A stretch of 64,000 nucleotides of DNA. Source: Herminiimonas sp. GTDB taxonomy: Bacteria > Pseudomonadota > Gammaproteobacteria > Burkholderiales > Burkholderiaceae_D. A program made the position numbers and the translations under genes. Where the stretch lies: the NCBI GenBank assembly GCA_027310305.1, contig DAIDBD010000098.1:1-64000 (forward strand), written 5' to 3'. The notes beneath the pieces are model-generated. The model searched no databases, was not told the DNA's origin, and was given only the letters and a program-made list of their open reading frames with translations. Below are positions 37,321-44,383 of the stretch, piece by piece; the first letter of the stretch is position 1, and each line of letters starts with the position of its first letter.

Positions 37321-38562
37321 TCAGGCGTCCAGTGCCTGGCTGAAGTCCTCGAGCAGATCCGCGGTATCTTCAATGCCGACCGATACCCGGATCAGCGATT
37401 CCGCGATGCCCATGCGGGCGCGCCGCTCCGGCCCCATTTCATAAAAAATGGTATGAGCGACCGGAATCACCAGCGTGCGCGTATCGCCCAGATTGCTCGC
37501 CGGTATGCCCAGCTTGAGGCGGTTCAGATAATCGAAACAATCGATACCGTCTTTCAGCTCGAAGCTGAATAATCCGCCGCAGGCATCAAACAGGTCGGTC
37601 GCCAGCGCGTGCTGCGGATGCGATTGCAACCCGGGATAGTGGACTGCGGCGATCCGTTCATCGGCTTCCAGCATGGTCGCCAGCGCCATCGCATTGACAC
37701 ACTCGCGCCCCACTCTCAGCGCCATGGTTTCCGCGCCGACCGCCAGATGATGCGCCGCTTCCGGTCCGAGCGAACCGCCGAAATCGCGCAGGCCCTTGGC
37801 CCGGATCTGCGCCACGCCCCACTGCGCCGGTGCAAACCGTTTGTAACTATCGACGATATTCGGATACCTGGTCCAGTCGTACAACCCGGTATCGGTCACG
37901 CTGCCGCCCAGCGCATTGCCATGGCCGCCTATCGACTTGGTCAATGCATTGATCACCAGGCTGGCATCGACTGTCTTCGGCTGAAACAGATAAGGCGAAG
38001 TCATCGTGTTGTCGACGATATACAAAATGCCGCGCTCGCGGCACAGCCGGCCGATGCGCGCCAGATCGGCGACCTGGGTGCGCGGATTGGCGATGGTTTC
38101 GACGAACACGATGCGCGTGGCGGGCGTCAACGCCGCCTCGACCTGCGCCACATCGGTTGCATCGGCCATCGACACATCGGCGCCCTGCGCATTGACCGTT
38201 TGCCAAAGACTGTTGGTGTTGCCGAACAGGAAAGCGGACGATACGACATGGTCGCCGTTGCGCAGCAATGCCTGCACGACCGCGGCGATTGCCGCCATGC
38301 CGGTGGCGAAACAGATCGTCGCATTGCCGTCTTCCATTTTGGTGATCTTGTCTTCCAGCGCAGTGACGGTCGGATTGCCTTGGCGGCCATACCGATAACC
38401 CGGCTGCCTGCCCTGAAATACCGCCGCCAGATCGCGCGCATCCTTGTAGCCGAAAGCGACCGAAGTATGGATCGGCTTGTGCAATGATCCATGCTCGATC
38501 GGCTTTTGCCGGTCGCTGTGCAGGATGGTGGTGGTGAAGCCGTATTTTTTGCTGTCGTTCAT
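37321..38562 (-). CDS. Cys/Met metabolism PLP-dependent enzyme (cystathionine gamma-synthase / O-acylhomoserine sulfhydrylase family)
   Basis: A 413-residue PLP enzyme of the trans-sulfuration family. The Schiff-base lysine is K209 in NALTKSIGGHG. The cofactor Asp is in YIVDNTMTSPYLFQP (about residue 184), and YRYGRQGNPTV supplies the phosphate-binding Tyr/Arg. The GGHG after the lysine is more like MetY-type sulfhydrylases than MetB/MetC. The ATG lies only about 14 bases beyond a strong terminator, which in turn follows a SAM-II-like aptamer. A role in methionine synthesis under SAM feedback is therefore likely. The exact reaction is not decided by sequence. Confidence 0.85.
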   Translation of the reverse strand: MNDSKKYGFTTTILHSDRQKPIEHGSLHKPIHTSVAFGYKDARDLAAVFQGRQPGYRYGRQGNPTVTALEDKITKMEDGNATICFATGMAAIAAVVQALLRNGDHVVSSAFLFGNTNSLWQTVNAQGADVSMADATDVAQVEAALTPATRIVFVETIANPRTQVADLARIGRLCRERGILYIVDNTMTSPYLFQPKTVDASLVINALTKSIGGHGNALGGSVTDTGLYDWTRYPNIVDSYKRFAPAQWGVAQIRAKGLRDFGGSLGPEAAHHLAVGAETMALRVGRECVNAMALATMLEADERIAAVHYPGLQSHPQHALATDLFDACGGLFSFELKDGIDCFDYLNRLKLGIPASNLGDTRTLVIPVAHTIFYEMGPERRARMGIAESLIRVSVGIEDTADLLEDFSQALDA

Positions 38563-38570
38563 GGAAGACT

Positions 38571-38610
38571 TTAATAAAAAAACCCGTTTAGCGAGCGCTG
38601 AAACGGGTTA
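38571..38610 (-). terminator. Terminator between the SAM-II-like aptamer and the PLP-enzyme gene
   Basis: On the minus strand AACCCGTTT and AAACGGGTT form a nine-base stem, extended inside by CGCT/AGCG. Seven T follow. The T tract ends about 12 bases before the ATG, so the gene can only be expressed if this is bypassed or regulated. It also ends read-through from mshN. Confidence 0.85.
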
Positions 38611-38623
38611 ATGGTAATGATCA

Positions 38624-38698
38624 CATCCCTTTTAGCGGCACTTGTTTGGGATAGGTTCCTGATCCCGGCGCCCGCAAGCAAAAACAAATCGGCGCAGT
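38624..38698 (-). promoter_or_regulatory. SAM-II (SAM-alpha) type riboswitch aptamer
   Basis: Read on the minus strand. P1 is GCGCC (within 38691-38696) paired with GGCGC (within 38668-38673). The loop holds GATTTG (38685-38690) and GCTTGC (38674-38679). CTTG (38675-38678) can pair with CAAG of AAACAAG (38641-38647) as the pseudoknot P2. The conserved GCTAAAAGGG is at 38627-38636. These are the conserved positions of SAM-II as I remember them. A 19-base hairpin GGGATCAGGAACCTATCCC is inserted between P1 and AAACAAG. A terminator and a methionine-type PLP gene follow. Confidence 0.78.
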
Positions 38699-38702
38699 CC
38701 TT

Positions 38703-38729
38703 ATCGTATCGCAAAAAGGAGTAAAAACA
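38703..38729 (-). promoter_or_regulatory. Promoter of the riboswitch transcript
   Basis: The -10 candidate TACGAT (38703-38708) lies about seven bases before the start of P1. A weak -35, TTGTTT, lies 16 bases further up. Transcription would begin almost exactly at the aptamer. The -10 is convincing by position; the -35 is poor. Confidence 0.45.
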
Positions 38730-38761
38730 AAATCACACGATGGTTCGACACATATTGCGCA

Positions 38762-39958
38762 TCAGCGCAATTGATTCAGCTTCTGATCCACAAATGCCGC
38801 CAGTTCGGGCGACAGGGTGTTGGCTGCCCTGGCGCGGCCAAACGCATCCCGTGCTTCCGTTACGCGACTTTCAGCCTGCAGGGAAATTCCCAGCCCCATC
38901 CACCAAAGCCCGTTTTGCGGCGACTTGCGCAACGCGAGCGAATAATGATCTACCGCATCCTTGTTGCGTCCGTCGCGCTGAAACAGCGCGGCCAGAAATG
39001 CCTGATAATCGCCCCGCTCCGCCGCATACGGCAACGTGCGTTCCAAGGTTTCGATCGCAGGCCGAAGATCGCCTTTTTCCACTTGCAGCCGTGCCAGCAT
39101 CATCGCCAGGCCAGGCTGCGTCCGGTCGAGATTGACGCCCTCCTGCAACTTGCGTATTGCGTCATCCTGACGCTTGTTTTCCAGCAGCAGGCCGACCAGG
39201 GTCTGGCGCGCCACCGAGTGTCGGGGATCGAGTTGCAGCGCCTGCTCCAGCGCGCTGATCGCTTCGGCGGTCTTCGCTTGCTGTATCAATACCGTTGCTC
39301 TTCGATACTCGTTCTCGGCGCGCTGCTGCGGCGTCAGTTCGTTGATTTGCTTGCTGACATTCGCCGGTATATCGAAATCGGTTGGCTTTTCCGCTTGCGC
39401 CGCCGGCTCAACCGGTCCCTTTGCCTTGATCGGTGCCGCCACCTCTATTTTCGCCGGCATCATTGGCCGGACCGGCGCGGTCACGGGTAAAGTCAACACT
39501 GGCGTCGGCGCCGCTGCCGGTATGGCTGCCGGTGCATTCGCAGCATTGCTTCGCGGCGCTTCATTGGCTGGTCCGTTCGACGCAACCTTGGCATCGGCTT
39601 GCTCCTTGATTGAAGAAGACGGCGCTGCAGCAGCGGGCAAAACAACGTCCTTTGCCTCTGTTGCCGGATTTTTCGAAACGGGCGGCTGTACCGCAGTCAG
39701 GCCCGCTGCAAGTTTCAGCGCCAGCCGTGGCGGCTGCACAATCGGTTGCGCCATGACGACCGTCGGCGCAGTCTGGCGGCCCCATAACCAGGAAATTACT
39801 CCCGTCAGTATCAATGTCAATCCCAATACAAGCCACCAGGCGACATGAATTCTGCGATTCTCCGGCGCGGCGCGAAGCTGGCCATGCATGGCACCCACCA
39901 CTTCGCCTTCGGAGCGGCGCCCTTCCAGGTCCTGCAGCATTTTATTAATCAGGCTCAT
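38762..39958 (-). CDS. mshN: MSHA biogenesis protein MshN (TPR protein)
   Basis: A 398-residue inner-membrane protein with tetratricopeptide repeats. The N-terminus MSLINKMLQDLEGRR is typical of MshN. One membrane helix (VAWWLVLGLTLILTGVISWL) follows, then a Pro/Ala-rich linker, then TPR units (AISALEQALQLDPRHSVARQ and later repeats). ATG 39958 overlaps the mshM stop by four bases; upstream frame extension is rejected. It is the last gene of the mshI-N block. MshN is an accessory pilus-assembly factor. Confidence 0.88.
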   Translation of the reverse strand: MSLINKMLQDLEGRRSEGEVVGAMHGQLRAAPENRRIHVAWWLVLGLTLILTGVISWLWGRQTAPTVVMAQPIVQPPRLALKLAAGLTAVQPPVSKNPATEAKDVVLPAAAAPSSSIKEQADAKVASNGPANEAPRSNAANAPAAIPAAAPTPVLTLPVTAPVRPMMPAKIEVAAPIKAKGPVEPAAQAEKPTDFDIPANVSKQINELTPQQRAENEYRRATVLIQQAKTAEAISALEQALQLDPRHSVARQTLVGLLLENKRQDDAIRKLQEGVNLDRTQPGLAMMLARLQVEKGDLRPAIETLERTLPYAAERGDYQAFLAALFQRDGRNKDAVDHYSLALRKSPQNGLWWMGLGISLQAESRVTEARDAFGRARAANTLSPELAAFVDQKLNQLR

Positions 39959-40854
39959 TTCAAATAAACCCATCCTATTCCGGTACCGGCAATCAATAAC
40001 GTTACTGCGCCGAGCCACATCCAGGGCCAGGGCCAGCCGATCCGCCTGGAAGCGATCGTGTCCTTCGCGGCCGCCTTCACATGACGCGCCCGTACCTGCT
40101 GCTTGCCTTCGCCGTACGTCAGCATGAGCGCCTTGTGCGCGAGAATGTTCACCAGCCGCGGAATGCCGCCGCTGGCAGCGCTCAGCATTTTCACCGCATC
40201 GCGGCCAAACAGCCTGCTGCCGGTAAATCCTGCGACATTGAGCCGATGGGAAATGTAAAATTCCAGATCATCCTTGGTAAGCGGCCCGAGATGATAATGG
40301 AACGTGATGCGCTGGGTGAGCTGGCGGATTGCATCCTGTTGTAGTTTCCTGTCCAGTTCAGGCTGGCCGAACAAGACAATTTGCAGCAGCTTGCGTTTTT
40401 CGGTTTCCAGATTGGTGAGCAGGCGCAGCGCTTCCAAGCTCTCGAGCGGCATCGCCTGCGCTTCATCCAGGCATAGCAATACCCGCTTTCCTTCACGCGC
40501 CAAAACCAGCAACCGGTGATTGATCGCTTTCAGCAACTGATACTGGTCGACATCTTTTTCGAGTGAAATTTCCAGTTCGTCGGCCAGCGCCAGCATCAGC
40601 GTGCGCGGTTCGAGATACGGATTGGGAATGTACGCAGTGACAAAACTGTCATCCAGCGTGGCCATGAATTTGCGGCACAGCAGCGTCTTGCCGGTGCCCA
40701 CTTCGCCCGTGATCTTGATGAAACCTTCGCCGTTTTTCGCGGCGACCAGCAGCGTATTCAATGCCTGCTGGTAATTGGAACAGGCGAAAAAAAAACTGGT
40801 ATCCGGGGTAATACCAAATGGCAGTTCATGCAAGCCAAAATGAAGCTTGTACAT
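39955..40854 (-). CDS. mshM: MSHA biogenesis ATPase MshM (ExeA-like AAA)
   Basis: A 299-residue AAA ATPase of the ExeA/GspA type. Walker A is GEVGTGKT (residues 50-57) and Walker B is VLLCLDEAQ near 125. A C-terminal transmembrane helix (WMWLGAVTLLIAGTGIGWVY) anchors it to the inner membrane. ExeA-type ATPases help secretin or pilus complexes pass the cell wall. It starts two bases after mshL and overlaps mshN. Confidence 0.9.
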   Translation of the reverse strand: MYKLHFGLHELPFGITPDTSFFFACSNYQQALNTLLVAAKNGEGFIKITGEVGTGKTLLCRKFMATLDDSFVTAYIPNPYLEPRTLMLALADELEISLEKDVDQYQLLKAINHRLLVLAREGKRVLLCLDEAQAMPLESLEALRLLTNLETEKRKLLQIVLFGQPELDRKLQQDAIRQLTQRITFHYHLGPLTKDDLEFYISHRLNVAGFTGSRLFGRDAVKMLSAASGGIPRLVNILAHKALMLTYGEGKQQVRARHVKAAAKDTIASRRIGWPWPWMWLGAVTLLIAGTGIGWVYLK

Positions 40855-40856
40855 GC

Positions 40857-42593
40857 CTACTGCGGTCCTGACAAACTTTGCGGATCGAGGTTCTGGATAT
40901 TGCGCTGGCTTTCCACCATGTCCTTGGTCCAGCTGGCATCGCCCTGTATCACCGTCGGTTTAAGCAGGATAACCAGTTCGCGTTTTTGCGTTACTTCATT
41001 CGTATTGCGCAGCAGCGCGCCGACGACAGGCAGGTTGCCCGCGCCAGGCAATTGCGAACGATCCGACGTCGTCGCTTGCCGCATCAGGCCGCCGATCGCG
41101 ACGATATGGCCATCGCGTCCGCGCACCACGCTATCCGTTTCCGAAATGGTGCTGGACGCTAGTGGCAAGGTGAAGGAAGCGCCGTTGCCTATGTTGACCG
41201 AAGTGTCGACGCTAACCACATTGCTGACCGAGGGATGAATATGCAAAATGATATTGCCGCTTTCATCGATTTGCGGCGTCACGTCGAGCGCGACACCGGA
41301 GAAGAAAGGTTGCAGCGTCACGTTCGGGCTGGTCTGCAAGTTTGCACCGACGGTAGTGCTCGTCGTGCTGAGATTGGTGATGAACAGTTCGTCTTTGCCG
41401 ACCTTCAGCACTGCTTTTTGATTATTCAGCGTAGCGATTCGCGGGCTCGATAGCACATGCACGGTTCCCTGCGTTTCCAGGAAAGAGAGCAACGCGGCAA
41501 AATTGCTGGTCTGAAATGCCATCCCGAACAAATTGCCGAAAGTGGAAGCCGCGGAAACCAGGTTCTGCCCCGGATTCGAAACCACCTGACCGCCGGTAAA
41601 CGTTCCATTAGCCGAATTAAACGATAATGCACCGCCGGCCAATGCTCCGCTCGATTGCAGTACGCTTCCGGGCGACAGGCGTCCGGCAGACAGGCGGCTG
41701 TTTCCGCCATTGGCAAATGCCGCCCAGTTGATTCCCGACTGATAGCTGTCATTCAGTTGGACTTCCAGTATTTTCGCTTCCAGAATCACCTGGCGATCCA
41801 CCGAGATCTGGGTCGCTTTCAAATAAGCGGCCACATCGCGCATTTCGCTCCACATGGCACGGACCACAACCACACCTGATTGCGGACTGATGACGACGCT
41901 GCGCCCGTCCTTGCCGCCGCCGACGATCGCTTCCAGGGAAGACTTCAGCTCAACCCAGAAATCGCTGCTTGATACCGTTTTGATATTGCTGGAATTTAAT
42001 GAACGGGAAGAAGTGCCGGGTGTTGTACCGGGAACGGTTCCGGTGACAGGCGTGGTCGAGCCGGCTGAAGTATCGCTGACGGAGCCTGAAGTGACGCGGA
42101 TTTCGGATGTCCCGTTCCGGCTTCCGGTCAAATAATTAACTTGAAACACTCGCGTTTGCAATGTCAGCGGCTTGATGTAAATACGCGTGCCGTCCACTTT
42201 ATAGTCGTAGCCATAAAGCTCGCGAATCGCATCCAGCGCTTCAAATACCGTCACGTCCTTGAGGTTCGCGGAGATCGTGCCGGTCACTTCCGGCGGCACC
42301 AGCATGCTGTATCGCGTGCCGGATACAAGGACCATGAAAAACTGGTTTGCCGGCAAATTATTGAACGCCAGGTTGAAGCGCTGCTCGGCCGGCTGGCGGG
42401 CGGGAGGCATCTCGATCCGGAGCGGCGGCAACAATGAAGCGGAGACCGCATCGGGTTGCGCGGGACGCGCCTGGGCTTCCGCCACAACCTTGTTCATTTC
42501 CGCATTGATCAGATCATATGTTTCGCGTCTGGGCGCAGAAGTAGTGCAGGCTGCCAGAAACAAAACCATGATGGCCAATATGAATTTTTGCAT
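40857..42593 (-). CDS. mshL: MSHA pilus secretin MshL
   Basis: Outer-membrane secretin (578 aa) through which the pilus passes. The lipoprotein signal MQKFILAIMVLFLAACTTSA has its lipobox Cys at residue 16. N-terminal STN-like modules follow (NLPANQFFMVLVSGTRYSML). The C-terminal secretin domain includes VHVLSSPRIATLNNQKAVLK and IGGLMRQATTSDRSQLPGAG. A Thr/Ser-rich linker of about 30 residues lies near residue 190. It is between mshK and mshM in the same orientation. Confidence 0.93.
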   Translation of the reverse strand: MQKFILAIMVLFLAACTTSAPRRETYDLINAEMNKVVAEAQARPAQPDAVSASLLPPLRIEMPPARQPAEQRFNLAFNNLPANQFFMVLVSGTRYSMLVPPEVTGTISANLKDVTVFEALDAIRELYGYDYKVDGTRIYIKPLTLQTRVFQVNYLTGSRNGTSEIRVTSGSVSDTSAGSTTPVTGTVPGTTPGTSSRSLNSSNIKTVSSSDFWVELKSSLEAIVGGGKDGRSVVISPQSGVVVVRAMWSEMRDVAAYLKATQISVDRQVILEAKILEVQLNDSYQSGINWAAFANGGNSRLSAGRLSPGSVLQSSGALAGGALSFNSANGTFTGGQVVSNPGQNLVSAASTFGNLFGMAFQTSNFAALLSFLETQGTVHVLSSPRIATLNNQKAVLKVGKDELFITNLSTTSTTVGANLQTSPNVTLQPFFSGVALDVTPQIDESGNIILHIHPSVSNVVSVDTSVNIGNGASFTLPLASSTISETDSVVRGRDGHIVAIGGLMRQATTSDRSQLPGAGNLPVVGALLRNTNEVTQKRELVILLKPTVIQGDASWTKDMVESQRNIQNLDPQSLSGPQ

Positions 42594-42606
42594 TCTTGCT
42601 ATACCT

Positions 42607-43017
42607 TTATTGCCGCCGACTATCGGCCTGTGGATATGCCCGGCTGGAAGCGGAGTTCAGACGCTTTTCCACATTTGGAAAAAGCTTTAGCGTCTGTAAG
42701 TTTTTACCGCTTTGCAACGTGACTTCACTTTCGGTAATATTAACCACTCGGGAATCACCGAATTTCCCTCCCAGATTCACTGCCTGGCCGCTGATGACCG
42801 CCACTTTCCGCTCCGGTGAAACCAGCACCGATTGCAATACCGGGCCTGTATCGGCAGCTTGAGAACTTGTCTCAGACCCCCGCCCGATTGAAACCGGCGG
42901 CCGCGTCGGGTCGATCAGTGTTTCCGCCAGTACAGAGGGCGTTACGGCAAACATCCATAACAGGAAGCCGCTCTGCATCACTCTTCTTGCAATGGCAATG
43001 TTCAAAGGTTCAACCAT
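42607..43017 (-). CDS. mshK: MSHA biogenesis protein MshK (PilP-like)
   Basis: A 136-residue periplasmic pilot-type protein. The diagnostic LIDPTRPP motif lies just after the signal-like helix (MQSGFLLWMFAVTPSVLAE). The remaining domain (VLQSVLVSPERKVAVISGQA) resembles the PilP/GspC homology region that contacts the secretin. The ATG overlaps the 3' end of mshJ by 16 bases. A second in-frame ATG just before the signal helix (42978) is an alternative start. Confidence 0.85.
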   Translation of the reverse strand: MVEPLNIAIARRVMQSGFLLWMFAVTPSVLAETLIDPTRPPVSIGRGSETSSQAADTGPVLQSVLVSPERKVAVISGQAVNLGGKFGDSRVVNITESEVTLQSGKNLQTLKLFPNVEKRLNSASSRAYPQADSRRQ

Positions 43018-43721
43018 TTCTTGTCCAGACTCATCGTGAAAAGAGTCAAGGTCAGCGTGGCTTTGGGATATTCATCGACATTCAGCTTTGCCTTCCCCCA
43101 AAACAGTTGCCACGGCATCGCCTCAAGCTGAGCCATGTAATTCACCATGTCGGGGTACCCGCCTTGCACGACAATTTCCACACCATGCTTGTAAACCGAT
43201 CCCGCCACCGGCTGATGTTCAGCTGCATTCTTTGTCGCGGCGCTTGCTGTTGGAATGCTTTTTTCTGCACCGGCTTTTACTTCGTTTGCCACCGGTTCGG
43301 TTAAATTCGTCGAAGCCAATGTTTTCAAAGACAACAAACGCAACTTGCCGTTACGCTTCAAGATGTCTTCCAGCAACAGTGTCATTTTATCAGGAGAAAC
43401 CAATCCTTTTTGCATATCCAGCAGAACCGTTTGCATTTGCGATAATTCCTGTTTTACCGCGTTCAAACGCTCACGGGTGCCGGCATCCGGATCGTTCCGC
43501 ACCATGATTGCCTGACGGACCTGAGTCTGAATCTGAGTGACCAGCACCTGCTCTGTTTTGAGTTGCCCCGATAATTGCTTTTGCCTGGTGAATAGCGGAT
43601 CGAGAAAGAGTGCATTCATTAACGCAATCAAAAGAATCGCCACCATGGCAAAAATAATGACGCGTTCCCGCAAGGTCAACGCATCTATTTTCAACACTGA
43701 TTTTTGCCAGTACTGCTTCAT
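43002..43721 (-). CDS. mshJ: MSHA biogenesis protein MshJ (PilO/GspM-like)
   Basis: A 239-residue bitopic inner-membrane protein with one N-terminal helix (IIFAMVAILLIALMNALFL). A coiled-coil region follows (RLNAVKQELSQMQTVLLDMQ), then a periplasmic ferredoxin-like fold. This is the PilO/GspM layout that links the cytoplasmic MshI ring to the secretin. It overlaps mshK and lies 50 bases after the PilN-like gene. Confidence 0.87.
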   Translation of the reverse strand: MKQYWQKSVLKIDALTLRERVIIFAMVAILLIALMNALFLDPLFTRQKQLSGQLKTEQVLVTQIQTQVRQAIMVRNDPDAGTRERLNAVKQELSQMQTVLLDMQKGLVSPDKMTLLLEDILKRNGKLRLLSLKTLASTNLTEPVANEVKAGAEKSIPTASAATKNAAEHQPVAGSVYKHGVEIVVQGGYPDMVNYMAQLEAMPWQLFWGKAKLNVDEYPKATLTLTLFTMSLDKKWLNL

Positions 43722-43771
43722 TTTCCGTGTGCTCCAAACGAATCCGTTTGTTCCGTCATTGTTTCGTCGAA

Positions 43772-44383
43772 TCAGTGCAGATTGAATTCAATATACCCGG
43801 CCAGCCCGCGCGATTTGGCGGCGGCCTGCTCTACTTGCGGCACCTGCATTTCCAGCGTTCCGAATGATTTTCCCTGCATCACCGGCTCGCGTTTCAGATG
43901 ATTCATGTAGGTCGGAACCAGATCCGGTTGCAGCGCCCGCCCTTGCAGTTCGACCTCATTTCCGGCACCGACCAGGCTCACGCTGGTCAGCCACACGCCA
44001 TCAACGATCTGCCGCGAAAAGGCCCGGAAATATCCCGAATAGCCCTTGGTGTTGCCCATGTCGCCTTTTTGCAGCACATTGAATACCTGCTTGAGCGACT
44101 GCATTTCGGCTTCCGCCTGCTGCAGCTGGTTTTCCAAAGCCTTGTTTTTTTGTCGCGGTCCGTATTCAGCCGTGATTTTGGCCAGTTGCGCCTGCGATGT
44201 GCTTAATTGCGCAGTCGAGATTGCGGCCTGCTTGCTCAACGCAGATACCTGGAAATTGGCATATATCGCCACCAGCGTCGAACCGAGCAGCAGCAAGCCC
44301 AGCGCCTGCAGCATCGCAACCGTCGAAAAATACTTTCTTTGCTTGAGAAAGATCGGGTTGAACAGGTTGATCTGCTGGCTCAT
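43772..44383 (-). CDS. MSHA biogenesis protein, PilN-like (MshI2)
   Basis: A 203-residue inner-membrane protein. It begins MSQQINLFNPIFLKQRKYFS, the INLFNP motif being the PilN peptide that binds PilM/MshI. One helix (ALGLLLLGSTLVAIYANFQV) and a coiled coil follow, then a periplasmic domain. The start overlaps the mshI stop by four bases. In Vibrio this gene is called mshI2 or is fused or absent in older annotations, so no symbol is forced. Confidence 0.86.
   Translation of the reverse strand: MSQQINLFNPIFLKQRKYFSTVAMLQALGLLLLGSTLVAIYANFQVSALSKQAAISTAQLSTSQAQLAKITAEYGPRQKNKALENQLQQAEAEMQSLKQVFNVLQKGDMGNTKGYSGYFRAFSRQIVDGVWLTSVSLVGAGNEVELQGRALQPDLVPTYMNHLKREPVMQGKSFGTLEMQVPQVEQAAAKSRGLAGYIEFNLH

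Follow-up and report, generated by a model that had tools for sequence, protein, structure and literature searches.

The locus and its features

The window, i.e. the whole 64-kb stretch of DNA that was analysed, carries an RNA element on its minus strand at about positions 38697–38576, upstream of a gene (37321–38562, minus strand) for a PLP enzyme of the cystathionine gamma-synthase family. The 413-aa product matches NCBIfam NF004609 at 723.7 bits (cut-off 555) and Pfam PF01053. The upstream neighbour gene ends at 38762 and the regulated gene starts at 38562, and therefore the element occupies the whole 199-nt gap. Since the same genome encodes an O-acetylhomoserine sulfhydrylase and a cystathionine beta-lyase, the regulated enzyme could act as the gamma-synthase in transsulfuration, if the family names are a guide. 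The minus-strand region at 38762–44383 reads by eye as an MSHA-type type IV pilus operon (secretin, ATPase, tetratricopeptide protein), which is unrelated to the switch.

A probable promoter was located by eye at 38730–38703, with a −35-like TTGTTT (38730–38725), a 16-nt spacer and a −10-like TACGAT (38708–38703). Relatives have the block TTTGCGnTACGATA conserved at the corresponding position; in a consensus scan the promoter candidate scored under the threshold. The P1 stem-loop follows at 38695–38668, where GCGCC (38695–38691) pairs with GGCGC (38672–38668) around the loop L1, GATTTGTTTTTGCTTGCG, as indicated by folding and by the match to model R1 (see below). L1 contains the blocks GATTTG (38690–38685) and GCTTGC (38679–38674). 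The interval between P1 and the A-rich strand L3 is taken up by a hairpin, GGGATCAGGAACCTATCCC (38666–38648), recognized from its fold, from pooled inserts and from close relatives. L3 itself, AAACAAGTGCC (38647–38637), corresponds to an nAAAT consensus present in most collected SAM-II leaders, and includes the block AAACAAG (38647–38641). The 3′ pseudoknot strand GCTAAAAGGG is at 38636–38627. All sequence blocks quoted in an earlier note on this DNA are thus present on the minus strand, and in the order claimed.

The intrinsic terminator spans 38609–38576 (5′ arm 38609–38597, 3′ arm 38592–38581, T-run 38582–38576); it is predicted by folding and is conserved in relatives. A strong terminator had been proposed to lie shortly before the ATG, and this is confirmed, as the U-tract ends 13 nt upstream of the ATG at 38562. 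No clear Shine-Dalgarno sequence can be recognized between the T-run and the ATG (38575–38563), and the start codon of close relatives likewise comes soon after the T-run. Translation may therefore begin without such a sequence or via the U-rich stretch.

Identification as SAM-II

The 2005 description of SAM-II included many terminators (Corbino 2005, PMC1273637). The earlier note assigned the element to this class and suggested an Infernal search with the Rfam model (RF00521) as a check. That search gives 12.5 bits and misses the curated cut-off of 36, which is a search threshold and not a structural trait. The low score most likely results from the insertion of the hairpin and divergence of the tail, and does not point to a different kind of RNA. 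The own-genome copy before metX is above the RF00521 cut-off, and clear copies are found in relatives.

The cores of 29 SAM-II leaders from other genes, some of which carry inserts, were aligned to build a second model, R1, which has P1 as its only helix. Its training set left out the window and every leader of the regulated gene's family, but did include the metX leader of the same genome as one row. In the 64-kb window R1 finds the element at 45.2 bits (E 4e-10), and the runner-up place has 11.4 bits. The match spans the full length of the model, including the P1 stem and the GAUUU third strand with which L1 begins. In addition, the 21-mer AAACAAGTGCCGCTAAAAGGG has a single occurrence at up to three mismatches, and none in 100 shuffles.

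Plain SAM-II leaders lie immediately before six orthologues of the regulated gene from other families, and score 70–75 bits with R1. Four of these six leaders, which are without the inserted hairpin, are above the Rfam cut-off (37.2–42.1 bits). The plain leaders of the orthologues settle SAM-II membership better than any score of the window copy does, and together with the R1 match they uphold the original assignment. The identification as a SAM-II riboswitch with an intrinsic terminator is firm.

The genomic setting is also that of SAM-II. In the whole genome of the window, R1 finds further copies before metX (77.4 bits), metH (41.6 bits) and, weakly, metK (31 bits). Collected leaders with an identified gene are upstream of metX, metZ, metH or members of the regulated gene's family, and the element is itself the leader of a methionine/SAM gene. 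Most likely it senses S-adenosylmethionine (SAM). The weak SAM-II-like leader before metK (locus L206, G000:C4:3945–4003, minus strand) has GAGTTA replacing GATTTG, and weak matches of a length similar to that of this leader recur in relatives.

The element thus shares with SAM-II/SAM_alpha (RF00521, PMC1273637) the P1 stem, the GAUUU third strand, the UUGC/GCUAA core, an A-rich L3, a terminator and an association with methionine genes. It differs from the canonical form in the extra hairpin after P1, a short outer pseudoknot helix and a score under the Rfam cut-off.

The pseudoknot and P1

The pseudoknot was previously proposed to form between CTTG and CAAG. This pairing is not conserved: of 125 SAM-II leaders only 6 contain CAAG, and 82 have CTTG without CAAG. 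We read the SAM-II fold differently: UUGC pairs with GCUAA, its conserved partner, leaving one U bulged, and the A-rich strand serves as L3. Both TTGC (38677–38674) and GCTAA (38636–38632) are present in the window copy, and can form the inner helix P2b. GCTAAA is invariant in relatives, an invariance that is partly built into the search pattern.

The second pair of the outer helix P2a is a standard pair in 88 of 125 leaders, which equals the maximum of 1000 permutations (mean 75.8). In the window copy P2a consists of U-G wobbles only, and is weaker than that of close relatives, where the pairs are mostly C-G. One P1 pair changes from C-G to U-A in 8 of the 125 leaders. Column-wise covariation among close relatives was uninformative, with P1 invariant and the terminator registers shifting; folding of individual loci and duplex energies were therefore used.

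The inserted hairpin

The extra hairpin of 19 bases reported after P1 is indeed there, and is exactly 19 nt in length. The spacing between P1 and GCUAA is 12 nt in plain leaders vs 31 nt in the window copy, and the difference of 19 nt is the hairpin immediately after P1. Taken alone, the window's own hairpin is not significant, as 53 of 200 shuffles are equally stable. Support for it comes from the folding of the inserts of relatives and not from its own stability. The 103 inserts from leaders with a recognized gene have a summed energy of −1046 kcal/mol, vs −500 ± 22 kcal/mol for dinucleotide shuffles, and three quarters of them fall individually below 5% against shuffles, even as their sequences differ. 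The pairing is kept in 14 close relatives.

A genome scan for cores with a longer stretch found at least 118 places; Burkholderia, Paraburkholderia, Caballeronia, Cupriavidus, Ralstonia, Limnohabitans, Undibacterium, Halomonas, Legionella and Pseudoalteromonas are among the matches listed. The hairpin-bearing form is common in beta- and gammaproteobacteria, with inserts of unrelated sequence. Riboswitches are known for large stem-loops inserted at fixed sites (PMC2258182); a literature search found no description of such a hairpin inserted in SAM-II. The hairpin probably stacks on P1 at its open end, on the side remote from the ligand, and would aid folding or stability.

Hairpin-bearing SAM-II leaders in Halomonas (L076, L093, L097), Legionellaceae (L078, L094, L125, L173) and Pseudoalteromonas (L129, L141, L157) precede genes which by eye encode MetN-type ABC transporters or an integral membrane transporter, and not biosynthesis genes.

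Terminator and probable attenuation

The terminator of the window copy folds at −15 kcal/mol (z −5.2), and none of 200 shuffles is as stable. A terminator follows the aptamer in 101 of 125 leaders. Weak matches to the Rfam families 23S-methyl, anti-hemB, Trp_leader and C0465 all overlap the terminator and are under their cut-offs, and are therefore likely to be chance matches.

The 3′ strand of the pseudoknot, GCUAAAAGGG (38636–38627), is complementary to CCCGUUUCAGC (38607–38597) in the 5′ arm of the terminator, and the two may form an antiterminator (38636–38597), a proposal based on transcript folding and family-wide complementarity. In leaders of the regulated gene's family, the mean duplex energy of tail and terminator arm is −12.2 kcal/mol, vs −7.0 ± 0.5 kcal/mol for shuffled arms, and in other gene groups the duplexes are likewise better than those of shuffles. 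When the growing transcript of the window copy is folded, P1 and the hairpin form first, the antiterminator is the lowest-energy structure at 101–113 nt, and the terminator appears at 117 nt. It should be pointed out that the terminator is far more stable than the antiterminator (−18.0 vs −8.5 kcal/mol), and thus the switch would need to be kinetic. Swapping of arms among leaders of the regulated gene costs little pairing energy; the observed value is attained in 184 of 2000 permutations, so that covariation gives no proof of the antiterminator, and common descent of both pieces is possible. Only the metH group stood out in this test (24 of 2000).

The mechanism suggested is as follows. When SAM is scarce, the strand GCUAAAAGGG would be free to pair with the emerging 5′ arm CCCGUUUCAGC, and this would delay the terminator so that the gene is read. 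With ample SAM the pseudoknot would be stabilized and the strand held, whereby the terminator could fold and transcription would halt before the start codon. As the antiterminator precedes the terminator in folding, and SAM is taken to hold the 3′ strand, SAM would favour termination.

A different possibility is that the pseudoknot of the SAM-II aptamer affects termination without a dedicated antiterminator, or that control is mainly translational, near the ATG. This is considered unlikely. A clear complement of the GCUAAA core is found in 29 of 101 terminator arms, i.e. it is not universal, as might be expected if there were no antiterminator; against this, the antiterminator does form in the predicted order of transcription. 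With respect to translational control, a Sinorhizobium metA SAM-II is reported to act on translation at a distance despite a terminator (PMC9373788). The tail of the window copy, however, sequesters no ribosome-binding sequence, and is about 65 nt from the ATG with a strong terminator in between.

Terminator-based control, as proposed in the earlier note, is upheld; attenuation is the likely mechanism, with the antiterminator as its putative intermediate. Taken as a whole, the element is very probably a transcription-attenuation SAM-II riboswitch that has a P3-like hairpin between P1 and L3 and an antiterminator/terminator switch. It is a SAM-II attenuator with peripheral structural variation that current models miss.

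The statement that SAM-II acts mainly on translation does not hold, as terminators were the commonest platform in alpha- and betaproteobacteria in a 2007 survey (PMC2258182). Terminator-coupled SAM-II in betaproteobacteria is thus already published (PMC2258182), and a 2009 paper has beta- and gammaproteobacteria among SAM-II hosts (PMC2704228). A close parallel is the metZ SAM-II of Sinorhizobium meliloti, where a SAM-dependent terminator is also predicted and the terminated RNA was seen in vivo; it belongs to an alphaproteobacterium, and the accessible part of the report mentions no P3-like hairpin (PMC9373788).

Relation to SAM-V

The site of the inserted hairpin is shared with SAM-V (RF01826). 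The crystal structure of SAM-V shows the same core fold as SAM-II. It also has a P3 hairpin, which begins where P1 ends on the 3′ side, and the adenines after it occupy the minor groove of P1; according to the authors, SAM-II has no P3 (PMC6061858). The window hairpin (38666–38648) matches that description, being placed after the 3′ strand of P1 and before an A stretch. SAM-V differs in that it is translational and has no stable outer P2a helix. Its 3′ end covers the ribosome-binding site, whereas about 65 nt, with a terminator among them, separate the window aptamer from the ATG.

Could the element be a member of SAM-V, or of 'SAM-II long loops', and not of SAM-II proper? The common position of P3 (PMC6061858) would favour this, yet SAM-V gave no match with E up to 10 in either the window stretch or 18 related loci, RF01726 gave none at E ≤ 1 in the element's own genome, and orthologous leaders exceed the SAM-II cut-off. 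Such membership is highly improbable.

With SAM-II membership retained, it may tentatively be suggested that the inserted hairpin is a counterpart of SAM-V P3, and that beta- and gammaproteobacterial leaders with a short outer helix bridge SAM-II and SAM-V. If so, P3 would be an old module of one pseudoknot superfamily, repeatedly lost or gained and tuning folding for transcriptional control, and current catalogues would badly undercount the P3 form of that superfamily.

Tandem SAM-II aptamers, about 100–170 nt apart, are present at two loci, L037 (G040:C1:111464–114494) and L006 (G079:C347), and also in the genomes G063, G087 and G090. At L037 and L006 a terminator comes after the first aptamer, and the second is shortly before the start codon without a terminator. 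The arrangement is similar to that of the Pelagibacter SAM-II/SAM-V tandem, but here both aptamers look like SAM-II.

The metXZ element, Bp2_287 and distribution

In a 2014 survey SAM_alpha was confined to Rhizobiales and Rhodobacterales, and betaproteobacterial metX and metZ were described as preceded by a new 'metXZ' element, with a pseudoknot and a terminator that is always present (Leyn 2014, PMC4239095). The metX and metZ leaders collected here, from the same lineages and also with pseudoknot and terminator, are SAM-II, and some are above the Rfam cut-off. The metXZ element is thus very probably SAM-II, a judgment that comes from matching genes and lineages and the published description.

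Bp2_287 (RF02424) is a Burkholderia sRNA that was placed near metX/metZ (PMC3521395). It represents the same kind of DNA upstream of Burkholderia metZ, with the opposite strand modelled by Rfam. In five Burkholderia/Paraburkholderia loci (L113, L180, L176, L168, L079), RF02424 matches of 100–200 bits are exactly antisense to the R1 match before metZ, and in relatives many RF02424 matches are opposite SAM-II sites. In Burkholderia and Paraburkholderia, RF02424 is the reverse complement of the SAM-II metZ leader, and its strand and label in Rfam look wrong. That the window element is a small antisense RNA read from the plus strand is hardly credible: RF02424 on that strand is its best Rfam match and the Burkholderia candidate is among verified sRNAs (PMC3521395), but the match has 24.6 bits vs a curated cut-off of 70, the strong Burkholderia matches are antisense to SAM-II leaders, and the pseudoknot parts, the promoter-like block and the T-run are sensible on the minus strand only.

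The metXZ element and RF02424 probably merge into SAM-II. With the Rfam cut-off 6 of 100 relatives have SAM-II, vs 75 of 100 with R1 (E ≤ 1e-4), and this hidden form explains the apparent rarity of SAM-II outside alphaproteobacteria in Rfam-based surveys. On the same reading, the methionine genes of Burkholderia, Ralstonia, Cupriavidus, Halomonas and Legionella would be under the control of SAM sensing.

One further leader is on a contig labelled as an Alistipes senegalensis MAG (Bacteroidota; JAMPER010000001.1, L133), where SAM-II precedes a metX that is 77% identical to metX of the window genome. This is probably a misbinned or mislabelled betaproteobacterial contig.
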